Shown: in pieces, positions 25,732 through 45,245 of the stretch
How the letters are laid out: each line of letters starts with the position of its first letter
Numbering within the stretch: the stretch's first letter is position 1
Source: Microbispora hainanensis
Lineage (GTDB): Bacteria; Actinomycetota; Actinomycetes; Streptosporangiales; Streptosporangiaceae
DNA: 64,000 bases
Reading direction: 5' to 3'
NCBI RefSeq assembly: GCF_036186745.1
Contig: NZ_CP108086.1
Coordinates: 2,666,001 to 2,730,000, forward strand
The notes under the pieces: generated by a model
Told to the model about the DNA's origin: nothing
Seen by the model: the letters and a program-made list of their open reading frames with translations, nothing else
Database searches by the model: none
Translations under genes and position numbers: made by a program

Positions 25732-26659
25732 GAGCCAATTTCATCCTCGGGAGGCGTGTGCTACCCGATGGTTCTGAAGGACCGCGATGGCTTTGACCAG
25801 GTGGCCGGTCTTGCTCGGGCTACATCGCAGCTTGCGCAGGATGCGCCAACTCTTGAGCTGGGCGTTCGCGCGCTCACCAGGCCCGCGGAGCTTGGCGTGT
25901 GACCGGTTGGCCTGCTTTTGAGACTCGGGCTTGTTCCTGCCCTTGTACGGCGTGATCAGCACCTCGGCCCCGGCGCCCTGATAGGCCTTGTCGGCCAGGG
26001 TGATGATCCCGGCTTGGTCGAGCGCGCGCAGGATGCCCCAGATCCGGGCGGCGGTCAGGTCGTGGGTCTTGCCTGGCAGCGCACCGGAGGTCCACACGAT
26101 GGTCCCGTCCGGTCCCGCGATGACCTGCACGTTCATCCCATGCACGCGATGCTTGCCCGAGTAGTAGGGCCGGTCGGCCTTCACTCGGTCGGTGCGGATG
26201 AGCGTGCCGTCCAAGACCAGGTAGTGCAGGCCGTCCTTCGTGGCCTTCCGCAGCGCCGTCGCCAGTTTCGGTGATCGAGCCGACAGCAGGGCGACGGTTT
26301 CCTCCACATACCGCCACGCGGTGGCCGCCGACACTCCGAAACCCGCTCCGACCTCGGCGAATGTCTCGCCCTTGCGCAGATAGACCAGCACCAGGAGCGC
26401 CTGCTGCCCGGGGTAGAGCCGCCGCCACGTCGATCCGATGGCCTTGCGCCGCCTGCGGATCAGTCCGGCCACGTAGTTCAGCGTTGAACGCGACAAATCG
26501 ACGGCAGCACGATAGAACAGCACCCGAAGCTCCTGGCGATGACGGTGATGGTTGTGGTGATCAACCCGTCTACCAGGAGCTTCGCCACATCATGAGGAAA
26601 ACCCGAGCATCGCGATCATGCTGTGACCGGCTTAGCCGCCCGGCGGATGAAAAACGTTC
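25732..26659 (-). mobile_element. IS5-family element nested in the IS256 transposase gene
   Basis: The ends GAGCCAATTTCATCC (25732) and, read inward, GAACGTTTTTCATCC (from 26659) match at 11 of 15 positions. The target ACT is duplicated at 25729-25731 and 26660-26662 (ACTG on both sides if the left end starts one base later). Removing the element restores the IS256 reading frame. A GAAGCTCCTGG...CCAGGAGCTTC hairpin lies in the leader of its transposase gene. Confidence 0.85.
25741..26523 (-). CDS. IS5-family transposase (DDE_Tnp_4 type)
   Basis: A 260-residue transposase that looks intact. An HTH_Tnp_4-like N-terminal region contains LYPGQQALLVLVYLRKGETF and AEVGAGFGVSAATAWRYVEE. The DDE domain shows YLVLDGTLIRTD (first Asp), GALPGKTHDLTAARIWGI, TLADKAYQGAGAEVLITP (second Asp) and GERANAQLKSWRILRKLRCS (Glu). 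The stop lies 9 bp inside the left inverted repeat. It catalyses its own element's movement; the undisturbed frame and clean target duplication suggest recent insertion. Confidence 0.88.
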   Translation of the reverse strand: MLFYRAAVDLSRSTLNYVAGLIRRRRKAIGSTWRRLYPGQQALLVLVYLRKGETFAEVGAGFGVSAATAWRYVEETVALLSARSPKLATALRKATKDGLHYLVLDGTLIRTDRVKADRPYYSGKHRVHGMNVQVIAGPDGTIVWTSGALPGKTHDLTAARIWGILRALDQAGIITLADKAYQGAGAEVLITPYKGRNKPESQKQANRSHAKLRGPGERANAQLKSWRILRKLRCSPSKTGHLVKAIAVLQNHRVAHASRG

Positions 26660-27542: not shown

Positions 27543-27863
27543 ATGCCAGCCCCGAGGAAGTATCCCCAAGAGCTTCGAGAGCGCGCGGTGCGCATGGTCT
27601 TTGAGGTCCGCCGGCAGACCGGCGGTGCCCCCGGCGCGATCGCCCGGGTGGCCGATCAGCTCGGTGTTCACCGCGAGGCATTGCGCGGGTGGGTGCGCCA
27701 GGCCGAGATCGACGAGGGGCAGCGGCCGGGCACCTCGACCACCGACGCCCAGCGGATCGCCGAGCTGGAGCGCGAGGTGCGCGAGCTGCGCCGCGCCAAC
27801 GAGATCCTCAAGGCCGCGGCCGCTTTTTTCGCGGCCGAACTCGACCCCCGGCCGCCCAGGTAG
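27543..27863 (+). CDS. IS3-family OrfA (HTH protein)
   Basis: A 106-residue DNA-binding protein. The HTH_Tnp_1 domain reads RKYPQELRERAVRMVFEVRR and VADQLGVHREALRGWVRQAE, followed by a leucine-zipper-like coiled coil (AQRIAELEREVRELRRANEI) used for multimerisation. It ends shortly after a T6 run at 27824-27829, where ribosomes are expected to slip one base back into the orfB frame and make the OrfAB transposase. The start ATG follows GGAAGGGAG at a long spacing. Confidence 0.88.
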   Translation: MPAPRKYPQELRERAVRMVFEVRRQTGGAPGAIARVADQLGVHREALRGWVRQAEIDEGQRPGTSTTDAQRIAELEREVRELRRANEILKAAAAFFAAELDPRPPR

Positions 27864-28762
27864 TCGCCTTCATCGACGCTCACCGCGGCGCTTTCGGCGT
27901 CGAGCCGATCTGCCAGGTGTTGCAGGTGGCGACGTCGACGTACTACGCGGCCAAGTCCCGTCCGCCCTCAGCCCGGCAGGTGCGGGACGCCCAGCTCATG
28001 GCCGAGATCACCACGGTGTGGAACGAGAACTTCGAGGTGTATGGCGTGCGCAAGATGTGGAAGGAGCTCAACCGGCGCGGCACCCGCGTGGCCCGCTGTA
28101 CCGTGGCCCGGCTGATGAAGCGCCTGGGGCTGGCCGGGGCGGTTCGCGGGGACCACAAGCGACCGACCACGATCCCCGATGCTCTCATTGACCGGCCCGC
28201 CGACCTGGTCAAACGCGACTTCACCGCCCCCTCCCCCAACCGGTTGTGGGTCGCCGACCTGACCTACATCCCCACCGCGTCGGGGTTCGTGTACGCGGCG
28301 CTGGTGATCGACGCGTTCTCGCGGATGATCGTCGGGTGGCGTCTGGCCGATCATCTGCGCACCGACCTGGCGCTGGACGCGCTGGAGATGGCCATCTGGC
28401 GTCGCGGAGACGGACGGCGGCTGGAGGGCCTGGTGCACCACTCCGACCGCGGCTGCCAGTATCTGTCGATTCGCTACACCGAGCGCCTGTCGGGTGCCGG
28501 GGCGGTCTGCTCGGTCGGATCTCGAGGGGACAGCTATGACAACGCCCTGGCCGAAAGCACCATCGGGCTGTACAAGACCGAGCTGATCCACCGGCGCGGC
28601 CCGTGGAACGGCCTGGACGACGTCGAGATCGCCACCATGGAATGGGTCGACTGGTACAACAACCGGCGCCTCCACAGCGCCTGCAACGACCTTCCACCAG
28701 CCGAATTCGAGACCCACTACCGAACCCAAACCGCCCCGGCTATCCTCACCCCAGCCAGCTAA
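27827..28762 (+). CDS. IS3-family OrfB (rve integrase domain), made by -1 frameshift
   Basis: The frame entered after the slip at the T6 run encodes about 310 residues. An HTH_21 region (FIDAHRGAFGVEPICQVLQV and GVRKMWKELNRRGTRVARCT) precedes the rve DDE domain: NRLWVADLTYIPTASGFVYA with the first Asp, GLVHHSDRGCQYLSIRY with the second, and NALAESTIGLYKTELIHR with the Glu. All three catalytic residues are present and the C-terminus (WVDWYNNRRLHSACNDLPPA) is intact, so the element may be active. The start coordinate is the frameshift site, not an initiation codon. Confidence 0.88.
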   Translation, partial: FRGRTRPPAAQVVAFIDAHRGAFGVEPICQVLQVATSTYYAAKSRPPSARQVRDAQLMAEITTVWNENFEVYGVRKMWKELNRRGTRVARCTVARLMKRLGLAGAVRGDHKRPTTIPDALIDRPADLVKRDFTAPSPNRLWVADLTYIPTASGFVYAALVIDAFSRMIVGWRLADHLRTDLALDALEMAIWRRGDGRRLEGLVHHSDRGCQYLSIRYTERLSGAGAVCSVGSRGDSYDNALAESTIGLYKTELIHRRGPWNGLDDVEIATMEWVDWYNNRRLHSACNDLPPAEFETHYRTQTAPAILTPAS

Positions 28763-29429: not shown

Positions 29430-30770
29430 TTGGGATACTCCCGGAAGCGGGTCGGCAGGGACGGCAAGCCCCGGTACACGGCCTACTACATGGACCTCAA
29501 GGGGATGGAGAAATCCGCCGGTACGTTCTCCAGCAAGAAAGAGGCCGACAGGGCGTGGCGGGACGCCGAGAGTCTGGTCGCGCAGGGGCGAGTGGGCGAC
29601 CCACGGCGGGGCCGGCAGACCTTCGAGCGGTACGTGCTGGACACCTGGCTGCCGAACCACGAGATCGAGGCCACCACACGGCAGAGCTACACCTACACGA
29701 TCCACCGGCATCTGATCCCCGAGTTCGGCGCGATGCGGATGATCGACATCCTTCCCGAGCACGTCCGCGCCTGGGTCGCGAGCATGAAGAAGAACGGCGT
29801 CAGCCCGGCGACCATCAAGTACGCCAAGGTCCTGCTGAGCGCGATTTTCACGACCGCCCTCAACGACCAGGTGACGTATCTGCATCCCTGCCGCGGGGTG
29901 AAGACGCCAACCGTACCGAGGAAGCCGCGCACGATCATCACGCCGGAGCAGTTCGACGTGCTCTATCGGGCGCTTCCCGATGCCGATTCGCAGCTGCTCG
30001 TGGAGACGGCGATCGAGACCGGACTGAGGTGGGGAGAACTGACCGAGCTGCGGGTCAAGGATCTGGCGCCAAGGTCGAGAATCCTGACCGTTTCCCGCGC
30101 GGTTGTCGAGGTCAACCCCAAGTTCCATCCCGACGGTGAGCGGTTCATCGTGAAGGACTATCCGAAGGACGGGGAGTTCCGACGCTTCAAGCTCACGGCA
30201 CAGATCGCAGCGAAGATCGAGGCGCACATCGAGGCGGAGAAACTCGGGTCGAACGACCTCTTCTTCGTCTGGCGGCACGAACCCAAGGGCAAGCCGAAGC
30301 TCAGGCTCGCTCCCGATCCTCTCGAACTGGGCCTCACCGAGCCGAACGAGAAGGGGCGGAGTTACCGGCACGGGACGCTCAGTGCCTACACCGCGGGCAA
30401 GTGCCGTTGCGAGCACTGCCGTGCCGCGTTCGCCATATACCGCGCCGGTCGGCGGTCCTCAGGTAAGGACAGCCCGCGCGAGCCGCGACAGCGGGAGACC
30501 GACGGCCACATCCCGGCTGACTGGTTTCGGCGCCAGGTCTGGAAGCCCGCACTGAAGGAAGCCGACCTGGGGATCCACGTGCGGATCCACGACATGCGGC
30601 ATGCCCACGCCTCATGGCTGCTGGCCGGCGGCGCCGACCTTCAGGTGGTCAAGGAACGGCTCGGCCACGCCTCTATCGCCACCACCGAGAAGTACCTGCA
30701 CACCCTCGATGACGCCGACGAGACAGCTCTGGACGCCTTCTCGAAGATCCGGAATCGGTCCGCAAGGTGA
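29430..30770 (+). CDS. Tyrosine-type site-specific integrase
   Basis: A 446-residue recombinase. The N-terminal arm-binding region is followed by a SAM-like core-binding domain (about 65-155) and the catalytic domain, with Arg200 in TGLRWGEL, the HxxR box His387-Arg390 in HDMRHAHASWLL, His413 in LGHAS and the nucleophile Tyr422 in TTEKYLHTL. An unusual insert at about residues 305-345 carries a Cys cluster (KCRCEHC, C325/C327/C330), reminiscent of a small metal-binding loop. Translation probably starts at TTG 29430 after AAGGAGGGG. The gene sits 165 bp from the tRNA-Pro att scar and should have inserted the island there. Confidence 0.9.
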   Translation: MGYSRKRVGRDGKPRYTAYYMDLKGMEKSAGTFSSKKEADRAWRDAESLVAQGRVGDPRRGRQTFERYVLDTWLPNHEIEATTRQSYTYTIHRHLIPEFGAMRMIDILPEHVRAWVASMKKNGVSPATIKYAKVLLSAIFTTALNDQVTYLHPCRGVKTPTVPRKPRTIITPEQFDVLYRALPDADSQLLVETAIETGLRWGELTELRVKDLAPRSRILTVSRAVVEVNPKFHPDGERFIVKDYPKDGEFRRFKLTAQIAAKIEAHIEAEKLGSNDLFFVWRHEPKGKPKLRLAPDPLELGLTEPNEKGRSYRHGTLSAYTAGKCRCEHCRAAFAIYRAGRRSSGKDSPREPRQRETDGHIPADWFRRQVWKPALKEADLGIHVRIHDMRHAHASWLLAGGADLQVVKERLGHASIATTEKYLHTLDDADETALDAFSKIRNRSAR

Positions 30771-31597: not shown

Positions 31598-32752
31598 TCA
31601 CAGCCTGTGCCCGGGAAGGAGGCCACCCAGTCTCCTGGCGCCACTGATATCTTCCAAAGCCTCGATATCCGAGTCCGTGATCTTGCCGCGCAGGTCGGAG
31701 CCGATTTGCCAGCGATCGGTTATTCGGCCGTGCCTGCCCGCGACGATCGCCGGACTGATGCCCAATCGTGTCGAGAGCATCAAGAGCTGCTCTCTGGTTG
31801 TGGCCCGGGCGATAGCAGCGGAGGCGTCTTCGGGGAAGAGAACGCTTTCGGCGAAGGCGTCAGCCTCCTGCTCCGCGGGATCCTTTTCGGAGCGCTCGCC
31901 CTCGAGACTAAGCAGGGTCGTCCGCTTGGGATGTAGCAAGATGTGCCCGATCTCGTGAATGAGGCTGAACCAGAGAATGTCTGGCCTGCGGTGCCGCTCG
32001 GTAACGCCGATCACCGGTTGGTCCACCGTGAGCCACCAAGTTGCGGCGGACAACCGAGATCCGGCCACCTGCCGCACGAACACCAGTCTCACCCCCACCT
32101 CTGCCAGGGCGTTGCGCGCCACGGTGAAGCCGTCTACAACGCTCAGGTTCGTCATCGCGGGCAGTTGTTTCGTAAGGGCGCGCAACGCGCCGATCTTGAA
32201 CGGGGCGGCGTCTTGCGCATGACCAGCGAGGTCAACCAGGCGGAGCCACAACGCGATGTTCTGCTCGACGACTTCGAAAGCCTGGCTTCTTCGGAAAGAA
32301 ACCCGTGGTCGTTGCCAGGTCTGCTCGAACGCCGCAGGGCTCGCGACCCCAAAGAGCTTCAACACCTTCTCGACGGCGGACTCCTTGACCTCTCTAGGGG
32401 CGATGATTCCATGGCGGACGAGCGTCGGCCGGTCAAAGGCCTTGAACCACTCCGCGTATTCCGGCAGGCGGCTGACGGCTCTCTGCCTGCTGACGTGAGC
32501 CTGGTAATCGGCGTCCGCACGCAGCCAGAACAGGGCATCCAGGCCAAGAGCACGCTCGAGCACTTGGGCGACGTCGCCGGAGATGCCGATGCTCTGTTTG
32601 ACGATTTGGTTGATGTGCTTCGGCGTCAGGCCGGTGCGGTCGGCGAGGTCCGCCTGCTTGAGACCCCGCTCGTCGAGAATCGCTTGCAGGATCGCTCCAG
32701 GGTGGAGCGACCAGTCCGGCGCGAACTCCTGGATGTTCGCTGGCGTTGTCAT
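31598..32752 (-). CDS. HTH (HigA-like) plus ImmA/IrrE-type zinc metallopeptidase
   Basis: A 384-residue fusion. Residues about 18-72 form an XRE/HigA-like HTH (LKQADLADRTGLTPKHINQI). The middle is helical, and residues about 205-340 are an ImmA/IrrE (COG2856) metallopeptidase with HEIGH at 266-270 and a third-ligand glutamate in AEQEADAFAESVLFP. Known family members either cleave a partner repressor (ImmA, IrrE) or act as the antitoxin side of a toxin-antitoxin pair. The ATG overlaps the stop of the upstream gene (ATGA), so the two are co-translated. Its position divergent from the ubiquitin-like operon suggests it could control that operon through the inverted repeat between them. Confidence 0.85.
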   Translation of the reverse strand: MTTPANIQEFAPDWSLHPGAILQAILDERGLKQADLADRTGLTPKHINQIVKQSIGISGDVAQVLERALGLDALFWLRADADYQAHVSRQRAVSRLPEYAEWFKAFDRPTLVRHGIIAPREVKESAVEKVLKLFGVASPAAFEQTWQRPRVSFRRSQAFEVVEQNIALWLRLVDLAGHAQDAAPFKIGALRALTKQLPAMTNLSVVDGFTVARNALAEVGVRLVFVRQVAGSRLSAATWWLTVDQPVIGVTERHRRPDILWFSLIHEIGHILLHPKRTTLLSLEGERSEKDPAEQEADAFAESVLFPEDASAAIARATTREQLLMLSTRLGISPAIVAGRHGRITDRWQIGSDLRGKITDSDIEALEDISGARRLGGLLPGHRL

Positions 32753-33111
32753 CCTGCCGCCCTCTGCAGTTCGGACCGTCCGGCGACAACCAGCTCGGCG
32801 ACCTCAAGCTTGGAGACGCTCGCCGGGAAGAGGTGAGGGCTCAGCACCTCTGCGTCGTTCTCTCCCATGGCCACGGCGTCAAGGATGACGGTCTTGTGGG
32901 CGAGCACGATCCGACTGGACGCCTCGACCTTTCCCGGCGCGATGACGCTGACCAGACCGGTGGCAAGGGCGCTGGACAGGCAGGGCGTGGCCATACGCAG
33001 CACGTGGAGCAGCAGCATCACCTCGCCGATGGCGACAGGCCACGTCTGGCTGAGCAGGTGGTACGAACTGACGACTTGCGCAAGAGCAGGGTCCGGGAAC
33101 GTCAGGGTCAT
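32749..33111 (-). CDS. Small unknown protein coupled to the HTH-ImmA gene
   Basis: A 120-residue protein, first gene of a two-gene operon. It is rich in hydrophobic residues in its first half (VAIGEVMLLLHVLRMATPCL, SSALATGLVSVIAPG) and more polar later (ASVSKLEVAELVVAGRSELQ). No catalytic motif is obvious and I do not recognise it as a RelE/HigB-type toxin. The operon position (small first gene, HTH-metalloprotease second, ATGA overlap) is what would be expected of a toxin or substrate whose fate is controlled by the protease. That role is inference. The start may also be GTG 33117. Confidence 0.6.
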   Translation of the reverse strand: MTLTFPDPALAQVVSSYHLLSQTWPVAIGEVMLLLHVLRMATPCLSSALATGLVSVIAPGKVEASSRIVLAHKTVILDAVAMGENDAEVLSPHLFPASVSKLEVAELVVAGRSELQRAAG

Positions 33112-33224: not shown

Positions 33225-33244
33225 CGTGATCTAAACCGATCACG
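33225..33244. promoter_or_regulatory. Inverted repeat in the promoter of the ubiquitin-like operon
   Basis: CGTGATC (33225-33231), TAAACC, GATCACG (33238-33244) is a perfect 7-bp inverted repeat ending 30 bp before the start of the first gene and just ahead of the ribosome site GGGAGGG. It lies in the 163-bp AT-richer gap shared with the divergent HTH-ImmA operon. It is a plausible operator for that HTH protein. Confidence 0.6.
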
Positions 33245-33274: not shown

Positions 33275-33739
33275 ATGTCCCGCATCCACACCTACGTCGC
33301 GGCGGATGTCACGCCGCGTACACACACTGACATCGCGCCCGGCACGCCGCTGAACGAGATCGTGGCGGTCGGGAGCGGCTCCCTGGCCTATGGGTTCGAC
33401 CAGGACGAAGCGCTCGACGTCACGAAGACCGTTGAGGAGCTGTTCGGTGGCGGCAACGTGCACGTGATCGTCCACTCCTGCCGGGAGGTCCGCGTCACCG
33501 TCACTTACGGCGGCTCGTCGCGGATCGTTCAGGCCAAGCCCGGGTGGAGGGTCGCCAAGGTCCGCCGGGAGGCGATCAACGCGTTCCAGATCGACGAGGC
33601 TTCGGCTGCGGAGTTGGTCTTGCGCCTGCCCGGGTCCGGTGAGGAACTGCCTGAGACGGATCCGATCGGTGGCTACGCCGCAGAGGGCACCTGCTCGGTG
33701 GCGCTCGACCTGGCCCCGCACGTCCGGGCGCAGGGGTGA
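33275..33739 (+). CDS. Ubiquitin-like (beta-grasp) modifier protein ending in Gly
   Basis: A 154-residue protein, first gene of a four-gene coupled operon. Residues about 70-150 read as a beta-grasp fold: strand pair [10 protein letters not shown] and [10 protein letters not shown], a central helix ([11 protein letters not shown]), [20 protein letters not shown] (a ubiquitin-like turn before the last strand) and the final strand CSVALDLAP. The chain ends RAQG, so a C-terminal glycine is available for adenylation without processing. The N-terminal about 65 residues may be a second, diverged domain. GGGAGGG lies 7 nt upstream. The neighbouring E2-, JAMM- and E1-like genes make the role as a conjugated modifier likely. 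The fold assignment rests on pattern and context, not on an alignment. Confidence 0.75.
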
Positions 33740-34221
33740 CGGCCATGCCGGGCCCCGTCCACGATCCGGGGCTGGTGCGTCTCGAGTGCGACCTCGCCTC
33801 CGCAGAGTTCGACAGCGGGGTCGACGCCGGCCTTTGGCGCCTCGTGCGACTAGACTGGCCCACGCTCGTCGTCGCCGTCACCGCGGGCGACGGACGGGAG
33901 CTCGGCATGTGCCTCAACGTCGAGGGGTATCCCGCGACCGCCCCTGGCGGGCAGCCGTGGGACCTCGACAAGGACGCCCCGCTGTCCATCGACCGGTGGC
34001 CGGTGGGCGGGACCGCGGGGCTGGTCTTTCGCAGTGACTGGTCTCTCTCGCAGGGCAACGCTCCCTACCTGGCTTGCGATCGCCAGGGACTGCTGACCCA
34101 CGGGAACTGGATCACCGAGCGTCCCGACCGAGCCTGGAACCCCACCCGGACGATCACCTTCTACCTGTCCGAGATCCACCGTGAGCTTCGCAACGCTTCC
34201 CTCCCGGACGGTCACCAATGA
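33736..34221 (+). CDS. E2-like ubiquitin-conjugating protein (prokaryotic E2 family)
   Basis: A 161-residue protein. The E2 hallmarks visible are GYPATAP at residues 64-70 (equivalent to the YPxxxP motif of E2 enzymes), a strand-turn region ([18 protein letters not shown]), and [15 protein letters not shown] at 111-125. In that last segment Cys114 is the probable catalytic cysteine, and the His122 and Trp125 positions recall bacterial E2-like families. The helix [20 protein letters not shown] follows. Its start GTG overlaps the previous stop (GTGA) and its stop overlaps the next start (ATGA). It would receive the modifier from the E1 and pass it to a target. Bacterial E2-like proteins diverge strongly, so the family call depends partly on context. 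Confidence 0.7.
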
Positions 34222-34778
34222 CGTCGAGCCGACCAATGCTGACCATCCGAGTCGACCGTTACGAGACCCTGCTCCGAGAACTCGCCCGTCGCGGCGGAGG
34301 CGTCCAAGAGTCCGGCGCCTTCCTTCTGACCCCCCTCGACGCGGCGACCCAGTGTGGATCTCGGCCCATCACCGGAATCACCTACTACGACGATCTCGAT
34401 CCCGCCTGCCTCACCGGTGGCATCACCTTCGGTGCGATCGGCTACAGCGCGTTGAACGAACACTGCCGCCGCCACGGCCTGCAGGTGGCGGCCGACATTC
34501 ACACCCATCCCGGGACGTTGGTGCGGCAGAGCCACCTTGACCGCAGCAACCCGATGATCGCCCTCCCTGGACACGTAGCGATCATCGCGCCCCGCTTCGC
34601 CCAAGGCGTGATTGAACCGACGGACCTCGGCGTCCACGTCTTCGCCGGAGCCGGCAACTGGACCTCCTCGTACGGCCACGCAGTCACCGAGGTCGTCTCA
34701 CTAGAACCCATCGGCGGCGGTTCGTTCTCGCCTCTTCGCTTCATCCGTCGTCTCTTCAGCAGGGGTCACCGCCGATGA
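34218..34778 (+). CDS. JAB/MPN (JAMM) metalloprotease, deubiquitinase-like
   Basis: A 186-residue protein with a complete JAMM zinc motif: Glu31 in ESGAFLL, His95-Thr-His97-Pro98 in DIHTHPG, Ser105 and Asp108 in SHLDRSNP (E...HxHP-x6-SxxD). The remaining MPN core ([12 protein letters not shown], then [11 protein letters not shown]) is recognisable. In bacterial ubiquitin-like operons such proteases trim the modifier precursor or remove it from targets. Because the modifier here already ends in glycine, deconjugation is the more likely job. The C-terminal about 30 residues are basic ([12 protein letters not shown]). It is coupled by ATGA overlaps to both neighbours. Confidence 0.88.
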
Positions 34779-36136
34779 TTGAGCAACTCCGCTCCGACGC
34801 CGTCCACCGGACCGCACTCCTTTCCGCGCACGACGGTTCCCAGCCGACCATACGGGCCGCGCTCGACGCCCACGCGCGAACAGGTATCACGATCTGCGCT
34901 GACGCTACGACGTGCGGTGATGTGGCCGGTCAAGCGGCCCTGCTCACCGCGGTGGCAACGGCCGTGCGTGCATTCGGTACCGTCTTCGTCGCCGTCGACG
35001 GACCCGATGAACAGCTCAAATCTGGCCCGTTCTGCGGCGTGTCACTCAGCCATGCCCTGACGGAGATCGGAGCGGTTCCCTCAGACAACGATTGCCCAGC
35101 GTGGCCGGTCCTTCTGATCGGTGCTCAGACGCCTCCGCCCGCGCCTCATCCCGACGCTCCTGTAGTGCGGGCATCTTGGAGCGGCTGGACCGCCCGTATC
35201 CAGGCTGCTGGCGACCGGACCGAAGGTGCCCTGTGCGACGACACATGTGTTCTCGCCCCGATCGCCGCTGGCGCGCTCGGCGTGGCTGAGGCTTTCACCT
35301 TCAGCCGGAGCCTGCCCGGTAACGACGCCGGATTCCGCGATGTCGCTCTGGACCTCTGGTCACTCGGACGACAGGTCGCGGCCCCCGCGCCGCTTCTGCG
35401 CTACGCCCCGTGCGCCTGGTGGCTCGTCGGACTCGGCCACCTCGGCCAGGCCAATGCCTGGGCAATCTCCTGGCTTCCTTATCGGAATCCCAGGGACATC
35501 GAGATCATCCTCCAGGACACCGATCTCACCACCCCTGCCAACCACAGCACCGGCCTGCTCACCCCTGCAAACTCCGACGGCATGCCCAAGACAAGGCTCG
35601 TCGCGGCGGTTCTCGATCGACAGTCCTACCGGACCCGCCTCGTCGAACGGCCACTGACGCCGCACACCATCGCAGCTCCTACAGACTCGCACGTGGCGCT
35701 GATCGGCGTCGACAACCTCCCTGCCCGCAGGCTGATCTCCTCAATCGGATGGCGCACTGCCATCGACGCCGGCCTCGGTGCTGGGCCTCGGGATTTTTCG
35801 GCGATCGCAATTCACCGCTTCCCCGGAGCTTTCCCCAGTACAGGCGTCCCGGCATGGGCCGACTCCACAACTCTTACGGTCACCGTCCCCGATCAACCCG
35901 CCTTCAAAGACGCGGAGTCCCGCCTCGGACGCTGTGGCGTCGTCGAACTCGCAGGTAAGGCCGTCGGAGCCGCCTACGTCGGTGCCATCGCCGCCTGCCT
36001 CACCGTCGCCGAAGCCGTCCGAGAACTCCACGGTGGTCCTGGGCATGACATTCTTACCCTCGACCTTGTCACCCACGACGCGCGAACTGCCTCGGCTGAG
36101 ACCCGCGCCAACATCGTCCACGCCCCGCTCGCTTAG
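34775..36136 (+). CDS. E1/ThiF-like activating enzyme
   Basis: A 453-residue protein. An N-terminal region of about 205 residues of unknown fold precedes the adenylation domain: GLGHLGQ at residues 219-225 (GxGxxG nucleotide loop), IILQDTDL at 245-251 (acidic residues after strand 2), then N256 and K272 in NHSTGLLTPANSDGMPKTRL, and ALIGVDNLPARR at 308-319. Cys387 in GRCGVVELAGKAVGAAYVG is the best candidate for the thioester cysteine. It should adenylate the modifier C-terminus with ATP and hand it to the E2-like protein. The ATG overlaps the JAMM stop. The N-terminal extension recalls multidomain E1s of bacterial conjugation systems, but I cannot name its family. Confidence 0.82.
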   Translation: MIEQLRSDAVHRTALLSAHDGSQPTIRAALDAHARTGITICADATTCGDVAGQAALLTAVATAVRAFGTVFVAVDGPDEQLKSGPFCGVSLSHALTEIGAVPSDNDCPAWPVLLIGAQTPPPAPHPDAPVVRASWSGWTARIQAAGDRTEGALCDDTCVLAPIAAGALGVAEAFTFSRSLPGNDAGFRDVALDLWSLGRQVAAPAPLLRYAPCAWWLVGLGHLGQANAWAISWLPYRNPRDIEIILQDTDLTTPANHSTGLLTPANSDGMPKTRLVAAVLDRQSYRTRLVERPLTPHTIAAPTDSHVALIGVDNLPARRLISSIGWRTAIDAGLGAGPRDFSAIAIHRFPGAFPSTGVPAWADSTTLTVTVPDQPAFKDAESRLGRCGVVELAGKAVGAAYVGAIAACLTVAEAVRELHGGPGHDILTLDLVTHDARTASAETRANIVHAPLA

Positions 36137-36589
<453 letters not shown>

Positions 36590-38716
36590 ATGGTTTCCGA
36601 TGAAGTAAGCCCCTCGCAGCTGGGCCACCGTCTGGCTCAGCTACGTGATCAGGCCGGGATCAAGCAGGCGGAGCTGGCTCGAAGTATTACGTGGAGCCAG
36701 GCCGTCCTGTCCCGTGTTGAGGCAGGTGAGAGAGCGGTATCTGCTGAGGAACTGCAGGCGATCCTCAAGGCCATCGGCACTGAGGAGGCGGCTGGTTTGG
36801 CCCACATCCTTTCCCGTAAGTGGACGATGCTGCCCAGGCCGGCGCTCGATCACCCAGATCAGCAGCTGCTGTGGGAGGCCGAGCAGCGAGCACGTGAGCT
36901 GGACGATCTGGCTCGAAAGCCTCATGCACATCCTGCCTTCCAGACCCGCCTAGGTGAGTACATCAACGAGATTCGTCACCTGGCAGAACTGCTTCTCCGG
37001 CGCGATCACCTCATCGCCTTCATCGGAGCGATCGGCATCGGCAAGTCCACGGCCATCTGCCGTGTGACGGGACTCGAGATCGAGGACCAGGCTGGACGCC
37101 ATACCGTGCTCGAGACTGCCGGAGGCGGCACCACGCTCTGCGAGGTTCACCTGAAGGTCGGGCCTGGTCATGGCATCCGTATTGAGCCGCGTACCGAGCA
37201 GGAGATCCGCGCTTGCGTCGAGGACTTCGCCGACCTCTTCTTCAAATCGGATCAGCCGGAAGACGCCAACGACCCGAGCGAAGGAGTCTCACGCGAACTC
37301 GCTCGCGCCATTCGCAATATGGCAGGCCTCGTGCGGCCGCCGGCCACCAAGGGCCCGGATGGTAAAAGGATCAAGACGCCCGACCCCGCAAAAGTACTGG
37401 CCGAAGAGTATACGGAGAAGCGCGACTTCGTCGTGGAAGTGCTCACCCGGATGAATCTTCCCCGCAGAGACCTTCGGGCTGAGTGGTGGGGGCCCTCCAA
37501 GTCCGAGAGCCCCCTGGAATGGCTGAAAACCACTTTCGAAGACATCAACAATGGTCGACACCCAGCCTTCTCCCTGCCTGCGCGGATCGAACTGGTCGTA
37601 CCGGAACTCCTCCCCGTAGCCGGGCTTAACGTGAGCGTGGTGGACACCAGGGGTATCGACGGTCCCGGCGTTCGGGCTGACCTCGAAGCGCAACTTGAGA
37701 ACCCGCACACCGTGTCGATCCTGTGCTCGGGGTTCAATGCGGCTCCGGATCAGAACGTCCAGGATCTACTCCGTCGCGCGCGCGAGATCAGCAACTCTCA
37801 GATTGATTCCCATGCCGGTATTCTCGTTCTGCCCCGCCCAGGGGAGGCGCTTGCAGTAAAGGACGAATCGGGGCTGCGGGTCGAGTCGAGCGAGGATGGT
37901 TATGAGATTAAGGCCGAGCAGATTACCGCCGCTCTCACGCAGTACCAACTCGCCCACCTGCCCGTACATTTCTTTAATGCCCTAGAAGATGACCCGGAGG
38001 ATCTCAAGAAGTTTGTCCACCACTGCGTCAACGCGACTCGTGCCAGATTCCAGCAAAAGCTGAGAGACGTGCTGAATCGAGCTGAATCTCTCCTAGAAAA
38101 CGCGGAGAAGGAACAGGTCAGGGAGATTCAGCGAGCGGTGGGTCGGTACGTCTCTGCTTGGATCGACCAAAAGTCGGACCTTGGTCGGATCCGCGCAAAC
38201 ATCCCGGATCCGCTCTTCGCGGAGATCCGTCGCGCATATGCCAGCAGTGTGCATGCCGCAGCGCGCAGGAAAGGGGAATGGCACTCGCTCAGCTATTCGC
38301 ACCACCTCGGATTCGGCGCCCGGAAGATGGCCGTTGATGTCCTTCAGGACAAGGTCGCGGCTATCACGGACTACTGCAACACTGAGAGCACGGTTCGCTC
38401 CGAGGCCGAAGAATTGCTGCTGCAGACCGCTCGCCTAATCGCATCGGGATACGAAGAACTGCTGCGGAAGATGCAGCAGGCTGGCGTGAGCCTATTCGGG
38501 TCCGAACTCCAACAGGAATCTACCTTGTGGGGGCAGTGCACAAGCGAGTGGGGGCGCGGACCCGGCTACCGAGATCGCGTTCTTGAGCACACCCAGGAGT
38601 GGTTCGGAGCGAGTGACCGGCAAGACCTTGAGGACCGCCTCGAGGAGATGCTCCGCACAGAGTGGGAAGCACTCCTGCGCCGCATCAATTCGATCTTCGA
38701 ACTGAGTGATGACTGA
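36590..38716 (+). CDS. XRE-type HTH fused to dynamin-like GTPase
   Basis: A 708-residue protein. Residues 8-65 are an XRE HTH (LGHRLAQLRDQAGIKQAELA, TWSQAVLSRVEAGERAVSAE). After a helical linker comes a large P-loop GTPase: Walker A/G1 FIGAIGIGKST at 144-154, a G2-like Thr in GGGTTLCEV (178-186), and G3 VVDTRGIDG at 351-359. A long helical C-terminal half follows (coiled-coil-like ETxLLExAEKEQVREIQRAV region and an acidic end), as in bacterial dynamin-like proteins that remodel membranes or act in phage defence. GGAG six bases before ATG 36590 fixes the start. The HTH fusion is unusual and suggests DNA binding or autoregulation. It leads a same-strand run into the helicase-methylase-ATPase genes. 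Confidence 0.8.
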   Translation: MVSDEVSPSQLGHRLAQLRDQAGIKQAELARSITWSQAVLSRVEAGERAVSAEELQAILKAIGTEEAAGLAHILSRKWTMLPRPALDHPDQQLLWEAEQRARELDDLARKPHAHPAFQTRLGEYINEIRHLAELLLRRDHLIAFIGAIGIGKSTAICRVTGLEIEDQAGRHTVLETAGGGTTLCEVHLKVGPGHGIRIEPRTEQEIRACVEDFADLFFKSDQPEDANDPSEGVSRELARAIRNMAGLVRPPATKGPDGKRIKTPDPAKVLAEEYTEKRDFVVEVLTRMNLPRRDLRAEWWGPSKSESPLEWLKTTFEDINNGRHPAFSLPARIELVVPELLPVAGLNVSVVDTRGIDGPGVRADLEAQLENPHTVSILCSGFNAAPDQNVQDLLRRAREISNSQIDSHAGILVLPRPGEALAVKDESGLRVESSEDGYEIKAEQITAALTQYQLAHLPVHFFNALEDDPEDLKKFVHHCVNATRARFQQKLRDVLNRAESLLENAEKEQVREIQRAVGRYVSAWIDQKSDLGRIRANIPDPLFAEIRRAYASSVHAAARRKGEWHSLSYSHHLGFGARKMAVDVLQDKVAAITDYCNTESTVRSEAEELLLQTARLIASGYEELLRKMQQAGVSLFGSELQQESTLWGQCTSEWGRGPGYRDRVLEHTQEWFGASDRQDLEDRLEEMLRTEWEALLRRINSIFELSDD

Positions 38717-38967: not shown

Positions 38968-41900
38968 ATGGCAGGCGTAAGGCTGGAGGACTTGACCCCT
39001 GGGGCCATCGTGGGCGGCGTGACTACCAGTGGTGTGGTCACGGTGGTAGCGGTGAAGTGGTACGGCCAGAACGCCCTGAATCTCACCTACCGCGCCGAGG
39101 ATGGCAGTGTCGCAGACCAACTCCTCTATCGCGATTGGGAAGCCAGGCTCACCATCCGCGCCGCCTCGGCCGCCTACAGCTTCGACGGCGATGGGGCGCT
39201 GTTCAAGCTGGCCGCCGAGGCGCTCCGGATTCGCATGGCGGCGCGCTTCGACCCCATGCTCGCGGTTACGACCAGCGACCTGGAGCCGCTTCCGCACCAG
39301 ATCCAGGCAGTCTACGGCGAACTACTCGACCGCAGCCCGCTCCGCTTCGTCTTGGCCGACGACCCCGGCGCGGGCAAGACCATCATGGCCGGCCTCTACG
39401 TCAAGGAGCTGATGCTCCGCGGTGACCTGGAGCGCTGTCTGATTGTCGCCCCCGGCGGTCTGGTTGACCAGTGGCAGGAAGAGCTCCTTGACAAGTTCGG
39501 CCTCCGCTTCGATGTGCTCACCCGCGACCTCATTAACGCCCAGCTCGACCAAACCGTCTTCGAGAAGTTCCCGCTGCTCATCGCCCGGATGGACCAGCTT
39601 TCCCGCTCTGAGGAGCTTCAAGAGCAGCTCAAGCAGTCCGACTGGGACCTCGTCGTGGTCGATGAAGCCCACCGGATGTCGGCCAGCTACTTCGGGGACG
39701 AGCTGAAGAAGACCAAGCGCTACCAGCTCGGCGAGGTCCTCGGCAAGCACACCAGGCACCTGCTGTTGATGACCGCGACTCCGCATGCGGGTAGTGAGGC
39801 CAACTTCCAGCTCTTCATGGGCCTGCTCGACTCCGACCGATTCGAGGGCAAGTACCGCGAGGGCGTCAGTTCGACCGACACCGACGGCCTCATGCGCCGG
39901 ATGGTCAAGGAGGATCTGCTCACCTTCGAAGGCAAGCCTCTCTTCCCTGAACGGCGCGCTTACACGGTCCCCTACCTTCTGTCCGACGCCGAGCGTGAGC
40001 TGTATGAGGTCGTGACCGATTACGTTCGCGACCAGATGGGCAAGGCGCAGGCGATGGCGGACGGCAAGCGTGGCAACACCGTCGGCTTCGCCTTGACGGT
40101 CCTGCAGCGGCGCCTGGCCTCCAGCCCCGAGGCGATCCTGCAATCGCTCATCCGGCGCCACAAGCGCCTACAACTGCTCCGCCAGGAGATGGCCGCCGGC
40201 CGCAGCCCTATGGAAGCCAAGTTTCGCGACCGGCTGGCCGCGATGCTCGGCAAGGGCCCGGCGGACTACGACGAGGCCCTGGATGATCTGCCCAGCGCCG
40301 AACTCGAGGAGCTGGAGGACGACGTCGTTGACGCGGCCACCACTGCGCAGACTATCGCCGAGCTGGACAAGGAGATCCTTATCCTCGCCGACCTGGTCGA
40401 GGTGGCTCGGCAGGTGAGGCATAGTGGCACCGACAAAAAGTGGACCGAGCTGCGCGAGCTCCTGCTGAGCAACCCCATGGTCCGCGACAATGACGGCAGC
40501 CCACGCAAGCTGATCATCTTCACAGAGCACAAGGACACCCTGGAGTACCTCCGAGGCCGGATCAGTGGCCTGCTCGGCAGCGAGGAAGCCGTGGTCACGA
40601 TCCACGGCGGTGTCTCCCGCGACAACCGCCGAAAGATCAAAGAGTTGTTTACCCAGGACAAGGACTGCCGCATCCTGATCGCAACGGATGCCGCCGGCGA
40701 AGGTCTCAACCTCCAGCGCGCTAACCTCATGGTCAACTACGACCTGCCGTGGAACCCGAACCGGATTGAGCAGCGCTTCGGCCGTATTCACCGCATCGGC
40801 CAGACCGAGGTCTGCCACCTGTGGAACTTGGTCGCCCAGGACACCCGGGAAGGTGCGGTGTTCATCCGTCTTCTCGACAAGATCGAGGAACAGCGGAAGG
40901 CATACAAGGGCAAGGTCTTTGACGTCCTCGGCGAGGCGTTCCAGGACCGGCCGCTGCGGACGCTGCTCATGGAGGCGATTCAGTACGGCGACCGTCCCGA
41001 GGTACGCAATCGGCTCAACAAGGTCATCGACTCGTCAGTGGGCGACGGCCTGGAGAAGCTGCTTGCTGAGCGCGCGCTCGCGCACCAGAAGCTGGCCGAG
41101 GCGGATGTCGCCGAGTGGCGACTGCGGATGGAGGAGGCACGGGCACGGCGCCTACAGCCGCATTACATCAAGGCGTTCTTCATCGCCGCGTTCAAGCTGC
41201 TCGGTGGCCGGATCTCCGAACGCGAGCAGGGCCGGTATGAGATCACCCACGTTCCGGCGGACGTGCGCCAGTTCGAGCGACTGATCAAAGTCGGCGCCCC
41301 AGTGCTGCACCGCTATGAGCGGGTCACCTTCGATCGCGAGCTTGTCCGCCAGCCCGGCGCGCCCCGCGCTGACCTTCTCGCTCCGGGGCATCCGCTCCTC
41401 GATGCGGTGATCGCCTTGATCGTTGATCGGTACGGCACGCAGTTGAAGCAGGGCGCGATCCTGGTCAACCGGCGCGACGTCGGTGAGGAGCCGCGGCTAC
41501 TGGTCGCCGTTGCCCAGGAGATCGCCGACGGGCACGAGAAACCGCGGATCATCAGCAAGCGGTTCGACTTCGTCGAGATCGGTCTAACCTCGACGCGAAT
41601 GGCCGGTTCAGCGCCATATCTGGACTACGCCCCAGCGACGAAGGAAGAGCGGGAACTCGTTCAGGTTGTACTCAGGGAACCCTGGCTGGCCAGCGGGGTC
41701 GAGGACATCGCGATCGGCTGGGCCGTCCAGAACGGACTAAGCGCGCATGTCGCCGACCTGCAGAAGCGGGTCGACCGCGAGACGGAACGGACCCGCAAGC
41801 TGGTACGACAGCGCCTGCTCCAGGAGATCAATTATTGGGACTCACGCCATGCCGACCTCCTGGATGCTGAGGCGTCCGGCAAGTCGGTGAAGATGAAGTC

Positions 41901-42477
41901 CGAGTTCGCCGGTCGGCAAGCCCGGAATCTGGAGCAGCGGTTGGAGCGTCGCATGGATGAGCTCGACCGCGACGCCCGACTCCAGGTCCGGCCGCCGCGG
42001 ATCAGCGGGGCGGCTCTGGTCGTCCCACAAGGGTTGCTCGACCGGCTGGCCGGGCTCCGTGACCAGCCGATGGAGGCATACGCAAGAGAGACCGAGGCAG
42101 TGGAACGGCGGGCGGTTGACCGGGTGCTGCAGGAGGAGCGGAGGCTGGGCCGGATCCCGGAGGAGATGGCGCACAACAACCCCGGCTACGACATTCGGTC
42201 ACGTACGGTGGATGACCACTGGGTGTTCATCGAGGTTAAGGGCCGGATCGCCGGGGCGGACGCTTTCCACGTCACCCGGACCGAGGTCCTCACCGGCAAG
42301 AACTCGGGGCAGAGCTTCCGGCTGGCGTTGGTCAGCGTGCATCCCGAGGGGCCTGAGCACGATGATGTGCGTTACATCGTCGACCCCTTTAGAGACGTGG
42401 ATTTTGGCAAGTTCGACGCTACCGAGCTGGGTGGCGACTGGAAGAAGTCTTGGAAGCGAGGAGGAGCCCCGGTATGA
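38968..42477 (+). CDS. SNF2-type DEAH helicase with C-terminal DUF3883
   Basis: A 1,169-residue superfamily 2 ATPase. Walker A is ADDPGAGKTIMAG at about 130-142, motif Ia is LIVAPGGLVDQW, motif II is VVVDEAHRMSA at 229-239, motif III is LLLMTATPHAG, motif V is IATDAAGEGLNLQ, and motif VI is IEQRFGRIHRIGQ. A long helical region follows, and the C-terminus holds a DUF3883 domain (NNPGYDIRSRTVDDHWVFIE, VKGR), a PD-(D/E)XK-like fold often attached to defence proteins, here with a preserved E-V-K. It should translocate on DNA and possibly nick or sense modified DNA. The stop overlaps the methylase start (ATGA). GGAGAGGCGCAG precedes ATG 38968. Confidence 0.9.
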   Translation: MAGVRLEDLTPGAIVGGVTTSGVVTVVAVKWYGQNALNLTYRAEDGSVADQLLYRDWEARLTIRAASAAYSFDGDGALFKLAAEALRIRMAARFDPMLAVTTSDLEPLPHQIQAVYGELLDRSPLRFVLADDPGAGKTIMAGLYVKELMLRGDLERCLIVAPGGLVDQWQEELLDKFGLRFDVLTRDLINAQLDQTVFEKFPLLIARMDQLSRSEELQEQLKQSDWDLVVVDEAHRMSASYFGDELKKTKRYQLGEVLGKHTRHLLLMTATPHAGSEANFQLFMGLLDSDRFEGKYREGVSSTDTDGLMRRMVKEDLLTFEGKPLFPERRAYTVPYLLSDAERELYEVVTDYVRDQMGKAQAMADGKRGNTVGFALTVLQRRLASSPEAILQSLIRRHKRLQLLRQEMAAGRSPMEAKFRDRLAAMLGKGPADYDEALDDLPSAELEELEDDVVDAATTAQTIAELDKEILILADLVEVARQVRHSGTDKKWTELRELLLSNPMVRDNDGSPRKLIIFTEHKDTLEYLRGRISGLLGSEEAVVTIHGGVSRDNRRKIKELFTQDKDCRILIATDAAGEGLNLQRANLMVNYDLPWNPNRIEQRFGRIHRIGQTEVCHLWNLVAQDTREGAVFIRLLDKIEEQRKAYKGKVFDVLGEAFQDRPLRTLLMEAIQYGDRPEVRNRLNKVIDSSVGDGLEKLLAERALAHQKLAEADVAEWRLRMEEARARRLQPHYIKAFFIAAFKLLGGRISEREQGRYEITHVPADVRQFERLIKVGAPVLHRYERVTFDRELVRQPGAPRADLLAPGHPLLDAVIALIVDRYGTQLKQGAILVNRRDVGEEPRLLVAVAQEIADGHEKPRIISKRFDFVEIGLTSTRMAGSAPYLDYAPATKEERELVQVVLREPWLASGVEDIAIGWAVQNGLSAHVADLQKRVDRETERTRKLVRQRLLQEINYWDSRHADLLDAEASGKSVKMKSEFAGRQARNLEQRLERRMDELDRDARLQVRPPRISGAALVVPQGLLDRLAGLRDQPMEAYARETEAVERRAVDRVLQEERRLGRIPEEMAHNNPGYDIRSRTVDDHWVFIEVKGRIAGADAFHVTRTEVLTGKNSGQSFRLALVSVHPEGPEHDDVRYIVDPFRDVDFGKFDATELGGDWKKSWKRGGAPV

Positions 42478-45224
42478 GCCAGGGAACCAGCGGTGAGTAC
42501 CGGCGCAAGCTGATCGATGTGACGCTGCCTCTCACACAGATCAGCTATGCAAGCATCGCGGAGAAAAAGCGGAGTGTCGGGACGGTCAAGAACCTTCACA
42601 AGTGGTTTGCTCCCATGCCGACCCCTGCGCTCCGGGCCCTGATCTTTGCTTCCCTCGTGGACGATCCAGGACAAGGTCCCGAGCGCGACAGGCTCATCCA
42701 GCTCATCAAGGACTTGGTACCAACCGGGGGGACGGCCCCGTCAGGTGACGTGCTCCGCATGGCACGCGAGCTGATCGCGAAGTCCAATCCGGAGCTACCG
42801 ATCGTGATAGACCCCTTCGCGGGAGGCGGCTCCACCATCGTGGAGGCCCTTCGGCTGGGACTTCCAGCGGTGAGTTCAGACTTGAACCCGGTCGCAGCAC
42901 TCGTAACCCGCGCTCTTGGCGAGTTGCTTCCCGCCGTCGCTCTGATGCCCGCCGTCTCCAAGAGTAATGACGCGGCCCGCATGCGCGACATGCCATACGA
43001 CGGCCTCGGTGACGATCTCCGTCATTATGGTGCCCTAGTACAAGAAGCAGTGAAGGAAAGAATTGGCCACTATTACCCGGTTCCGCCTGGAGGGGAGCCG
43101 GTTGCCTGGCTTTGGGCGAGAACTGCGCCCTGTTCGAACCCTATGTGCGCGGTTCGCATCCCCCTATTTGGCTCACCGTGGGTGAGTAAGCAGCCTGGCC
43201 GTGAGGCCACGGTGGAGCCCCTCGTGGAGGGTGACGAGGTTCGGTTCATAGTCCACCAGGGCAAGAACGGTCCTGCTAAGGCGACCAAGGGCAGTGGGCG
43301 CGCCCAGTTCGCATGCCCGAAGTGTTCGTCTCCTTTGGGTGAAAAGGAACTACGCGCCTTGGGTCGGTCAGGAGAGCTTGGTCTCCAGCTCATGGCTTAC
43401 TGTATGGACACGAAGAGCGGCCGGACTTTCGTAAGTCCTTCCGCTGATCTCCAACAGGTTCTCGATGTAGAGGTGCCGGACGACCTGGACGAGCTCGAAA
43501 TCGGAGGCAACACAAAGAACTTCGCCCCTCCGCTCTATGGCTTGTCCCGGCACGAAGACCTCTACACGCCTCGCCAGTTGGCCATGCTTGCGGCATTTGC
43601 CGACGAGGTGGCCGAGGTCTACGACAGGGTCATCGAGGACGGGGGCAGCTTGGAGCAGGCCCGCGCAATCGCTACGCTCCTTGGCATCTGCGTAAGCAAG
43701 ATGGCTCAGTCCAACTCAACGCTGGTTCGCTGGCGGACACGGGTTGGCCCCTCCAAGACCGAGCCGGCTTTCGGCACGCAGGCAATGCCCATGCTGTGGG
43801 ATTTCGCGGAATCTTATCCATTTGGCCATTCCCGTGGTAGCTGGCAATCGCAGATCGATGGGCTGTTGTACGTTCTGAGAGAACTGCCGCGCGATGCCAA
43901 GCCAGGGAGGGTGGCTCAGGTCGACGCGCGCCGTGCGGGTGATCTCGTCGAACCTGGCACTGCGTTGATCGTGACAGATCCCCCTTACTTCGGGCAGATC
44001 AACTACGCGGACCTGAGCGATTACTTCTATCTATGGCTACGCCGCGCACTTCGCAATGTTCACCCAGACCTGTTCGGAACGATCGCAACTCCGAAATCCG
44101 TCGAGTTAGTGGCGAATCCCGCTCGCCATGGTGGAAATAAAGAAGGCGCGCAGCAGTACTTCATCGAAGGATTTACTGAAGTCTTCACCTCGTTGCAGAA
44201 GGCATCAAGACCGGATCTGCCGATTGTCGTTGCATACGCCGCCAAACAGGACGATTCCGATGGCGCCGGAGCTGTGTCCTCGGCATGGGTTTCTATGCTG
44301 CAAGCTGTTCTTGCCTCGGGACTTTCGGTCGTAGGCACGATGCCGATCGAATCAACGGTGGCGACTCGTCAGGTCAGTCAGGGTGCAAATGCGCTCGCTT
44401 CCTACATCATCCTGATCTGCCGTCCTCGACAGGCCGAGGAGATCGTCGACAAGTCGGGCTTCCTTGCTCGGTTGCAGGAGGAACTACCTGAAGCCATCGA
44501 GGCGCTCCGCAAGGGCGGCGTGTCACCGCTCGATATGGGTCAGGCGGCCATCGGGCCGGGGATGCGGATCTTTTCGGGTTATAAGGAAGTCCTCCAGCCG
44601 GACGGCAAGCCCATGACCGTACGCGAGGCACTGATCGAGATCGACAAGGCCGCCACTGCCATCATCGACGGCGAGGAGGCCGAGTTCGACGCCCCGACGA
44701 GATTCGCGTTGAAGTGGTTCCGCCAGTTCGCGTTCGACCGGGGTGCATATGGCGATGCTGACGTCGTGCTCCGTCAGACCGGCACCGCGATCCGTGACCT
44801 CGTTGAGGCCGGGATCGTTAGCAACACCCCGCGGAGCACGGTCTGTTTGCTCGACTTCGATGAACTGCCGGCCAACTATGACCCGGCCAAGGACGAGCGG
44901 ATCTCCCACTGGGAGGTCGCGATGCACCTCGCCAAACGCTTCAACGAGCAGGGGATCGACGGCGCGGCCCAGTTAGCTGCCGGAGTGCGTAGCCGTACAG
45001 ACGCCGCAATCAGCCTAGACCGGGTTAACCGTCTCGTTCACCGGCTTTTTAAGGTTTCCGATCGCCGCTTCCAGAGGACCGCGGCCATGTTCAATCAGTT
45101 GGGTACCGCCTGGCCGGACATCATGACGGCGGCACAAAATGTCACGCCCGCCCGATACGTTACGGATGAGATCGATGGCCTCTTCTCCAATGTGGAGGAG
45201 AGGTTGGACGACGATGACGACTGA
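42474..45224 (+). CDS. DUF1156-type DNA adenine methyltransferase
   Basis: A 916-residue protein of the COG1743 group. The N-terminus shows the DUF1156 signature KKRSVGTVKNLHKWFAPMPT. The SAM-binding motif is VIDPFAGGGSTIVEA (about 111-125), and the catalytic motif IV is IVTDPPYFGQINYADLSDYF (about 499-518, DPPY type, N6-adenine or N4-cytosine). Between them are a zinc-ribbon-like insert with CSNPMC and CPKCSS and a target-recognition-like region; the C-terminal about 200 residues are helical. It probably marks host DNA so that the partner helicase and ATPase attack only unmodified DNA. GGAG seven bases upstream and the ATGA overlap fix the start. Confidence 0.9.
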   Translation: MSQGTSGEYRRKLIDVTLPLTQISYASIAEKKRSVGTVKNLHKWFAPMPTPALRALIFASLVDDPGQGPERDRLIQLIKDLVPTGGTAPSGDVLRMARELIAKSNPELPIVIDPFAGGGSTIVEALRLGLPAVSSDLNPVAALVTRALGELLPAVALMPAVSKSNDAARMRDMPYDGLGDDLRHYGALVQEAVKERIGHYYPVPPGGEPVAWLWARTAPCSNPMCAVRIPLFGSPWVSKQPGREATVEPLVEGDEVRFIVHQGKNGPAKATKGSGRAQFACPKCSSPLGEKELRALGRSGELGLQLMAYCMDTKSGRTFVSPSADLQQVLDVEVPDDLDELEIGGNTKNFAPPLYGLSRHEDLYTPRQLAMLAAFADEVAEVYDRVIEDGGSLEQARAIATLLGICVSKMAQSNSTLVRWRTRVGPSKTEPAFGTQAMPMLWDFAESYPFGHSRGSWQSQIDGLLYVLRELPRDAKPGRVAQVDARRAGDLVEPGTALIVTDPPYFGQINYADLSDYFYLWLRRALRNVHPDLFGTIATPKSVELVANPARHGGNKEGAQQYFIEGFTEVFTSLQKASRPDLPIVVAYAAKQDDSDGAGAVSSAWVSMLQAVLASGLSVVGTMPIESTVATRQVSQGANALASYIILICRPRQAEEIVDKSGFLARLQEELPEAIEALRKGGVSPLDMGQAAIGPGMRIFSGYKEVLQPDGKPMTVREALIEIDKAATAIIDGEEAEFDAPTRFALKWFRQFAFDRGAYGDADVVLRQTGTAIRDLVEAGIVSNTPRSTVCLLDFDELPANYDPAKDERISHWEVAMHLAKRFNEQGIDGAAQLAAGVRSRTDAAISLDRVNRLVHRLFKVSDRRFQRTAAMFNQLGTAWPDIMTAAQNVTPARYVTDEIDGLFSNVEERLDDDDD

Positions 45225-45245
45225 CGATCGGATACGTAGGCGGAC

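Follow-up and report, generated by a model that had tools for sequence, protein, structure and literature searches.

Does the four-gene ubiquitin-like conjugation operon of Microbispora hainanensis belong to Bil (bacterial ISG15-like), a known anti-phage system, or must it be kept apart from Bil as a separate subtype? The operon lies at positions 33275-36136 of a 64,000-nucleotide stretch of contig NZ_CP108086.1 (positions 2,666,001 to 2,730,000; hereafter the window, meaning this whole stretch) and comprises, all on the forward strand, bilA (33275-33739), encoding a 154-residue tandem ubiquitin-like modifier with a bare C-terminal Gly; bilB (33736-34221), encoding a 161-residue E2-like protein with a predicted UBC fold, the Pfam domain DUF7665 and a candidate catalytic C114 accompanied by H122 and W125; bilC (34218-34778), encoding a 186-residue JAMM metalloprotease; and bilD (34775-36136), encoding a 453-residue E1-like protein with an N-terminal domain at about residues 1-205 and an adenylation domain from about residue 206. 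Successive open reading frames share 4-base overlaps: GTGA, ATGA and ATGA. An earlier note on this DNA had seen the operon, its parts and its defence context correctly, and had mislabelled the system as a subtype different from Bil, citing the gene order and an N-terminal part of the E1 that it called unknown. We are confident that the operon is a Bil system, of a branch with a DUF7665-type E2, that would conjugate and remove BilA. The operon thus adds an actinobacterial case to a known anti-phage system; it is not a new type of system.

The observations made directly on the window are its sequence, its conserved catalytic residues, its family membership and the predicted folds of BilA and BilB. 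The PADLOC models for BilA, BilB, BilC and BilD match genes 1 to 4 in the same order and over nearly their full length (E = 1.3e-34, 1.2e-50, 1.9e-55 and 1.1e-136; 118, 169, 185 and 454 bits). We take the Bil models of PADLOC-DB 2.0.0 to represent the system of Millman et al. (2022), which resembles the window operon in its four genes in the order A-B-C-D, its tandem ubiquitin-like BilA, its DUF7665-type BilB, its JAMM BilC and its BilD of about 450 residues; the difference is that the window operon is of an actinobacterial branch. Pfam finds in the operon DUF7665 in BilB (1.8e-42) and a sub-threshold match in BilC, and a scan with NCBIfam models gave no useful match to the operon proteins. 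To compare the operon with its relatives we used 93 loci, namely the window plus L029-L120; two further loci, L121 and L123, enter the comparison of the BilB cysteine and the BilD tree described below. BilD relatives occur in 35 plasmid records, 14 of whose matches were fetched (with the fragmentary L122 left out), and in 201 genome stretches. The genome loci used are the best 80 of these 201; since a single peptide pattern in BilD served to find them, the comparison set is biased. All 88 complete loci among the 93 have the order A-B-C-D on one strand. Modifier-E2-JAMM-E1 is therefore the order of Bil and no mark against it, and since the Bil models also match in that order, the separation from Bil is unsupported on the grounds given for it.

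BilA has the architecture expected of a Bil modifier. G154 is its last residue and is invariant in a 67-row alignment (A2); among the relatives, 66 of 89 BilA frames stop exactly on this Gly and 23 have a short tail beyond it. An AlphaFold model built from the 67-row alignment (predicted local distance difference test, pLDDT, 92.4) predicts a tandem beta-grasp protein, for which Foldseek ranks linear diubiquitin and ISG15 highest in the PDB (E = 1.3e-8 to 5e-7), and the BilA family profile finds di-ubiquitin among PDB sequences (E = 2.8e-4). Human ISG15 and linear diubiquitin are like window BilA in having two beta-grasp domains ending in Gly; they are unlike it in that identity is 8-15%, with no superposition of the whole chains (root-mean-square deviation mostly about 12) and a whole-chain template-modelling (TM) score of 0.4-0.46, a low value that we attribute to a different arrangement of the two domains. 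According to one review, BilA of Bil consists of two consecutive ubiquitin-like domains, and tailed BilA is first trimmed by BilC (PMC11354881). By analogy, BilC presumably trims the tailed BilA forms of the relatives first. Window BilA is encoded ending in Gly, and its BilC therefore probably serves deconjugation rather than maturation.

BilB and BilC can be compared with solved structures. We presume that 8TYX-8TZ0 are the structures of Metal_CEHH-type Bil by Chambers et al.; over the 152 residues used, a gene of pNGR234a shares 96.7% identity with the solved BilC, 8tyx_B. The AlphaFold model of window BilB (pLDDT 95.1) is a predicted UBC fold, and its top Foldseek matches are 8tz0_C (E = 2.9e-3) and 8tyz_C (E = 2e-2), both from a bacterial complex of E1, E2 and ubiquitin-like protein (probability 1.00, TM score 0.53-0.62), followed by human Ube2W (E = 0.16). 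The protein has a YPxxxP motif at Y65-P70, and the candidate catalytic position C114 is Cys in 80 of 91 BilB rows, with H122, W125 and R116 in all 91; a search of PDB sequences with BilB alone returned only unrelated chains. For BilC, the set of JAMM zinc-site residues is complete (E31, H95, H97, S105 and D108): E31 is present in 91 of 92 rows, the remaining row having a gap, and the other four are present in 92 of 92. A 17-row BilC family profile matches 8tyx_B with E = 2.5e-15.

BilD carries the motifs of an active adenylation domain. The GxGxxG motif (GLGHLG; G219, G221 and G224), the acidic D248, and K272, R274 and D313 are present in 93 of 93 rows, and the candidate C387 in 92 of 93, with one gap. 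The PADLOC alignment runs from residue 5 to residue 451 of 453, on model positions 4-447, and residues 28-286 align with residues 25-275 of the pNGR234a E1 (E = 3.6e-6), of which residues 38-166 are Prok-E2_C in Pfam. The N-terminal part of about 205 residues that had been called unknown is accordingly the usual N-terminal domain of BilD, covered by the PADLOC model and, as judged from sequence, homologous to that of the pNGR234a E1. For the solved branch, the review describes the corresponding part as an inactive adenylation domain (PMC11354881). A search of PDB sequences with BilD alone gave 0 matches, and a 13-row BilD profile matched ThiF at 7e-4 and weaker. None of the results that the earlier note named as refuting its reading was obtained: BilA is predicted to be a beta-grasp protein and BilB to have a UBC fold, and the terminal Gly, C387 and, with exceptions, C114 are conserved.

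Several results weigh against assignment to Bil. The Pfam match of window BilC to Prok-JAB is below the cut-off (0.011). Window BilA alone, searched against PDB sequences, found no ubiquitin, only unrelated chains. The structure search with BilB (Foldseek, PDB) gave no match at E<=0.001; the BilB profile found no related chain among PDB sequences (best E 0.17, unrelated), and it does not match pNGR234a BilB by sequence, although the folds match. Comparison of the N-terminal with the C-terminal half of BilD gave a probability of 14% and no support for a duplicated domain; the comparison is uninformative, and the N-terminal fold of BilD is therefore still a matter of inference. The window has neither PF14455 nor PF14459, the domains given for 'ISG15-like' in a review table (PMC10952713), and within BilB PF14455 has no match at E<=1. 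Window BilB has the Cys of the CEHH signature and the His at +8, but no Glu at +6 and no His at +13. Since this Glu and the second His are absent, the chemistry of window BilB may differ from that of the solved CEHH branch. Finally, the candidate catalytic Cys is replaced in 13 of 93 BilB proteins (11 of 91, plus L121 and L123).

The strongest alternative is that the operon forms a subtype to be kept apart from experimentally tested Bil, and its support comes from the pNGR234a operon, which has the same gene order and three traits that the window lacks: a single 98-residue ubiquitin-like protein (DUF2604), a 205-residue Metal_CEHH BilB with the pattern C-x5-E-x-H-x4-H, and a 519-residue E1 with Prok-E2_C at its N-terminus (Pfam). 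PF14455 and PF14459 are domains of this pNGR234a type, and it is these that the review lists under 'ISG15-like' (PMC10952713). Against separation stand the identical gene order, the review text in which BilA, like that of the window, has two ubiquitin-like domains (PMC11354881), and the PADLOC scores: the Bil models that give 118, 169, 185 and 454 bits for the window give none, none, 54 and 55 bits for the pNGR234a proteins, so that the window fits the curated Bil models better than pNGR234a does. The two operons also share their logic, a homologous BilC, a homologous part of the E1, and the top fold match of BilB. We regard a separate subtype as improbable. Because the window differs from the Metal_CEHH/Prok-E2_C type and one review ties those Pfam domains to 'ISG15-like', we consider the difference between a DUF7665-type and a Metal_CEHH-type branch inside Bil to be real. 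Iyer, Burroughs and Aravind (2006; PMC1779556) described operon types 6a-6e, which likewise bring together genes for E1, JAB, ubiquitin-like and E2-like proteins; in 6a-6c, however, the E2-like domain is fused to the E1, in 6e the JAB is usually fused to the E1, and 6d has an extra helical protein and a JAB-N domain, whereas the window has four unfused genes.

A Bub operon or a CBASS type II accessory (Cap2/Cap3) operon would have components of ubiquitin-like systems in common with the window, and regulators of the CapH/CapP type also stand beside Bub and CBASS, according to one paper (PMC13373217); the PADLOC E1-E2 models, however, do not match BilD at E<=1, compared with 1e-136 for the BilD model, E1 and E2 are separate genes, and no cyclase occurs among the flanking genes scanned, which make up part of the open reading frames of the window, so we give this explanation very little credence. 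The CBASS accessory set, which the earlier note had also set aside, was rejected for the lack of an E1-E2 fusion and of a CD-NTase among those flanking genes. That the operon is a decayed or silent, non-functional copy, as the broken related locus L047 of Lentzea and a private C59 in window BilB (Arg in 84 of 91 rows) might suggest, is highly unlikely in view of four open frames and conserved catalytic residues.

From the genes and predicted folds alone, we infer how this Bil operon would act in Microbispora hainanensis, as regards its catalytic steps, target, phage protection and regulation. BilD would adenylate the C-terminal Gly of BilA and take BilA onto C387; BilA would pass from BilD to C114 of BilB and then be joined to a target; and BilC would cut BilA off the target again. 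By analogy with the tail-fibre mechanism of the Collimonas Bil system, described in PMC11364771, the target may be one of the structural proteins of the phage, for instance the central tail fibre, and infected cells would release defective particles. A divergent helix-turn-helix (HTH)-M78 protein, discussed below, may hold expression down, with relief on DNA damage. As a member of Bil, the operon adds a further actinobacterium to those with a known ubiquitin-like pathway against phages; being compact and having a modifier that needs no trimming, it would be convenient for biochemistry, in a branch without a solved structure.

The BilB proteins without the candidate catalytic Cys raise the question of how Bil operates in lineages that lack an active-site Cys in the E2-like protein. 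In place of the Cys, the 11 of 91 rows (L032, L037, L039, L046, L048, L049, L050, L052, L066, L093 and L109) have A, W, L, S, T or F, and L121 and L123 have Y and W. The first 11 loci keep all the BilC and BilD catalytic residues checked; in L032, BilD is split over two frames. The L066 case, one Cys-to-Ser change relative to a neighbour in an environmental assembly, could be an error. On the BilD tree, the presence and absence of the Cys require at least four changes, although the direction and number of changes are unsure, the tree being a quick one with long branches flagged and L047 left out. Because lineages differ repeatedly in having this Cys, with an E1, a modifier and a protease that all appear intact, BilB might be in part a non-catalytic adaptor; in that case the E1 may transfer BilA directly.

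The second question is whether an M78 protease that senses DNA damage acts as a switch for Bil. Divergent from bilA, and 0.5 kb before it, lies a gene for an HTH protein with an M78 (ImmA/IrrE-like) metallopeptidase domain (31598-32752, reverse strand; Pfam HTH_3 1e-8, Peptidase_M78 3.4e-11; HEIGH motif). Its start is overlapped by a small divergent gene (32749-33111, reverse strand; about 120 residues) that matches nothing in PADLOC at 0.01 or in Pfam at 1. L041, L042, L043 and L032 have close relatives of the HTH-M78 gene in a comparable position next to Bil, and relatives of the small gene lie beside Bil in L041, L042 and L043. More broadly, an M78 domain, counted wherever an open reading frame of the fetched locus (which extends up to about 8 kb either side) passed E 1e-4, occurs in 72 of 93 loci, and in 63 of the 67 for which at least 5.1 kb of upstream sequence is available; the four without it are L044, L045, L120 and the broken L047. 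In controls, which were small, no M78 domain occurred in 27 loci (86.6 kb) that had not been selected for Bil, and none in the 64-kb window outside the gene beside Bil. In 59 loci (among L030-L119) a gene for a UvrD-family helicase, usually of about 1,110-1,160 codons, ends just before bilA. The helicase of L031, the only one scanned with Pfam, has an N-terminal M78 domain, and most of the other helicases match the M78 profile. Before the UvrD gene, where the sequence allows, stands a family of proteins of about 200-230 residues, with a sub-threshold HTH match below 0.01 in two of six scanned; in Paraburkholderia caffeinilytica, HTH and M78 are separate genes.

A known analogue of such a putative M78 switch is the CapP/CapH pair, in which CapP is a protease activated by single-stranded DNA that cleaves the repressor CapH (PMC13373217). 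The literature matches listed, a coverage outside which the main Bil papers lie, include no report of M78-UvrD beside Bil. We tentatively suggest, as a combined proposal less probable than its opposite, that Bil is switched on DNA damage through the adjoining ImmA/IrrE-like peptidase and that BilB is partly a non-catalytic adaptor. In many proteobacteria and Chloroflexota, M78 fused to UvrD would sense unwound or damaged DNA and cut the adjoining HTH-like repressor; a single HTH-M78 chain would combine both roles in the window. It is thus possible that the HTH-M78 gene regulates the Bil operon. Its best PADLOC match, however, is PD-Lambda-2_B (1.9e-34, compared with 5.2e-9 for capP), a defence component, so that it may instead be a separate defence module. 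An inverted repeat, CGTGATC-TAAACC-GATCACG (33225-33244), 30 bases before the start of bilA, is a possible operator: in mononucleotide shuffles, 4.7% had a repeat with arms of at least 6 and a 6-base spacer, and 33% had one when spacers of any length up to 12 were allowed, so support from the sequence is weak. Inverted repeats stand before bilA in the window and in L043 (and, by eye, in L041); they differ in sequence and share a similar position and a similar ACCGA-containing core. These are possibly operators, at a level near chance.

The occurrence of Bil is sporadic. A single BilD of this kind is encoded in the host genome (8.8 Mb, one contig), 14 other genomes of the genus gave at most a weak generic E1 match (best 2.9e-5), and a match at E<=1e-20 was found in 2 of 394 sampled genomes of the class, the host's own genome counted. 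The nearest BilD among the best 80 of the 201 genome stretches is that of Actinomadura pelletieri (74% identity); the others have 27-52% identity. A scan of viral_contigs with the single window BilD, whose reach is limited to close relatives, found no relative. Three of the five incomplete loci lie at contig ends (L054, L104 and L113), L070 is without a detectable BilA, and the broken L047 (7359-9444; Lentzea terrae) has bilA directly followed by a bilD split between frames, with bilB and bilC not found.

The surroundings of the window operon are those of a defence island. On its left side lie a DDE transposase (25741-26523), an rve-type transposase (27689-28762) and a phage-type integrase (29430-30770); a search of the 64-kb window for tRNA genes found none. 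On its right side, 36557-38716 encodes a 719-residue protein that fits no clear family and has an N-terminal HTH and a P-loop-like motif (IGAIGIGKST); the other Bil loci that were examined do not have it alongside. A complete Hma system, hmaA to hmaC, follows at 38968-48671 (PADLOC: HmaA 1462, HmaB 682 and HmaC 826 bits), and beyond it a GmrSD_N-domain protein (48768-50729; Pfam 1.1e-25, PADLOC HEC-05 4.9e-34). Between bilD and the next gene, at about 36390-36450, there is a short run of a GTCGCC hexamer repeat.

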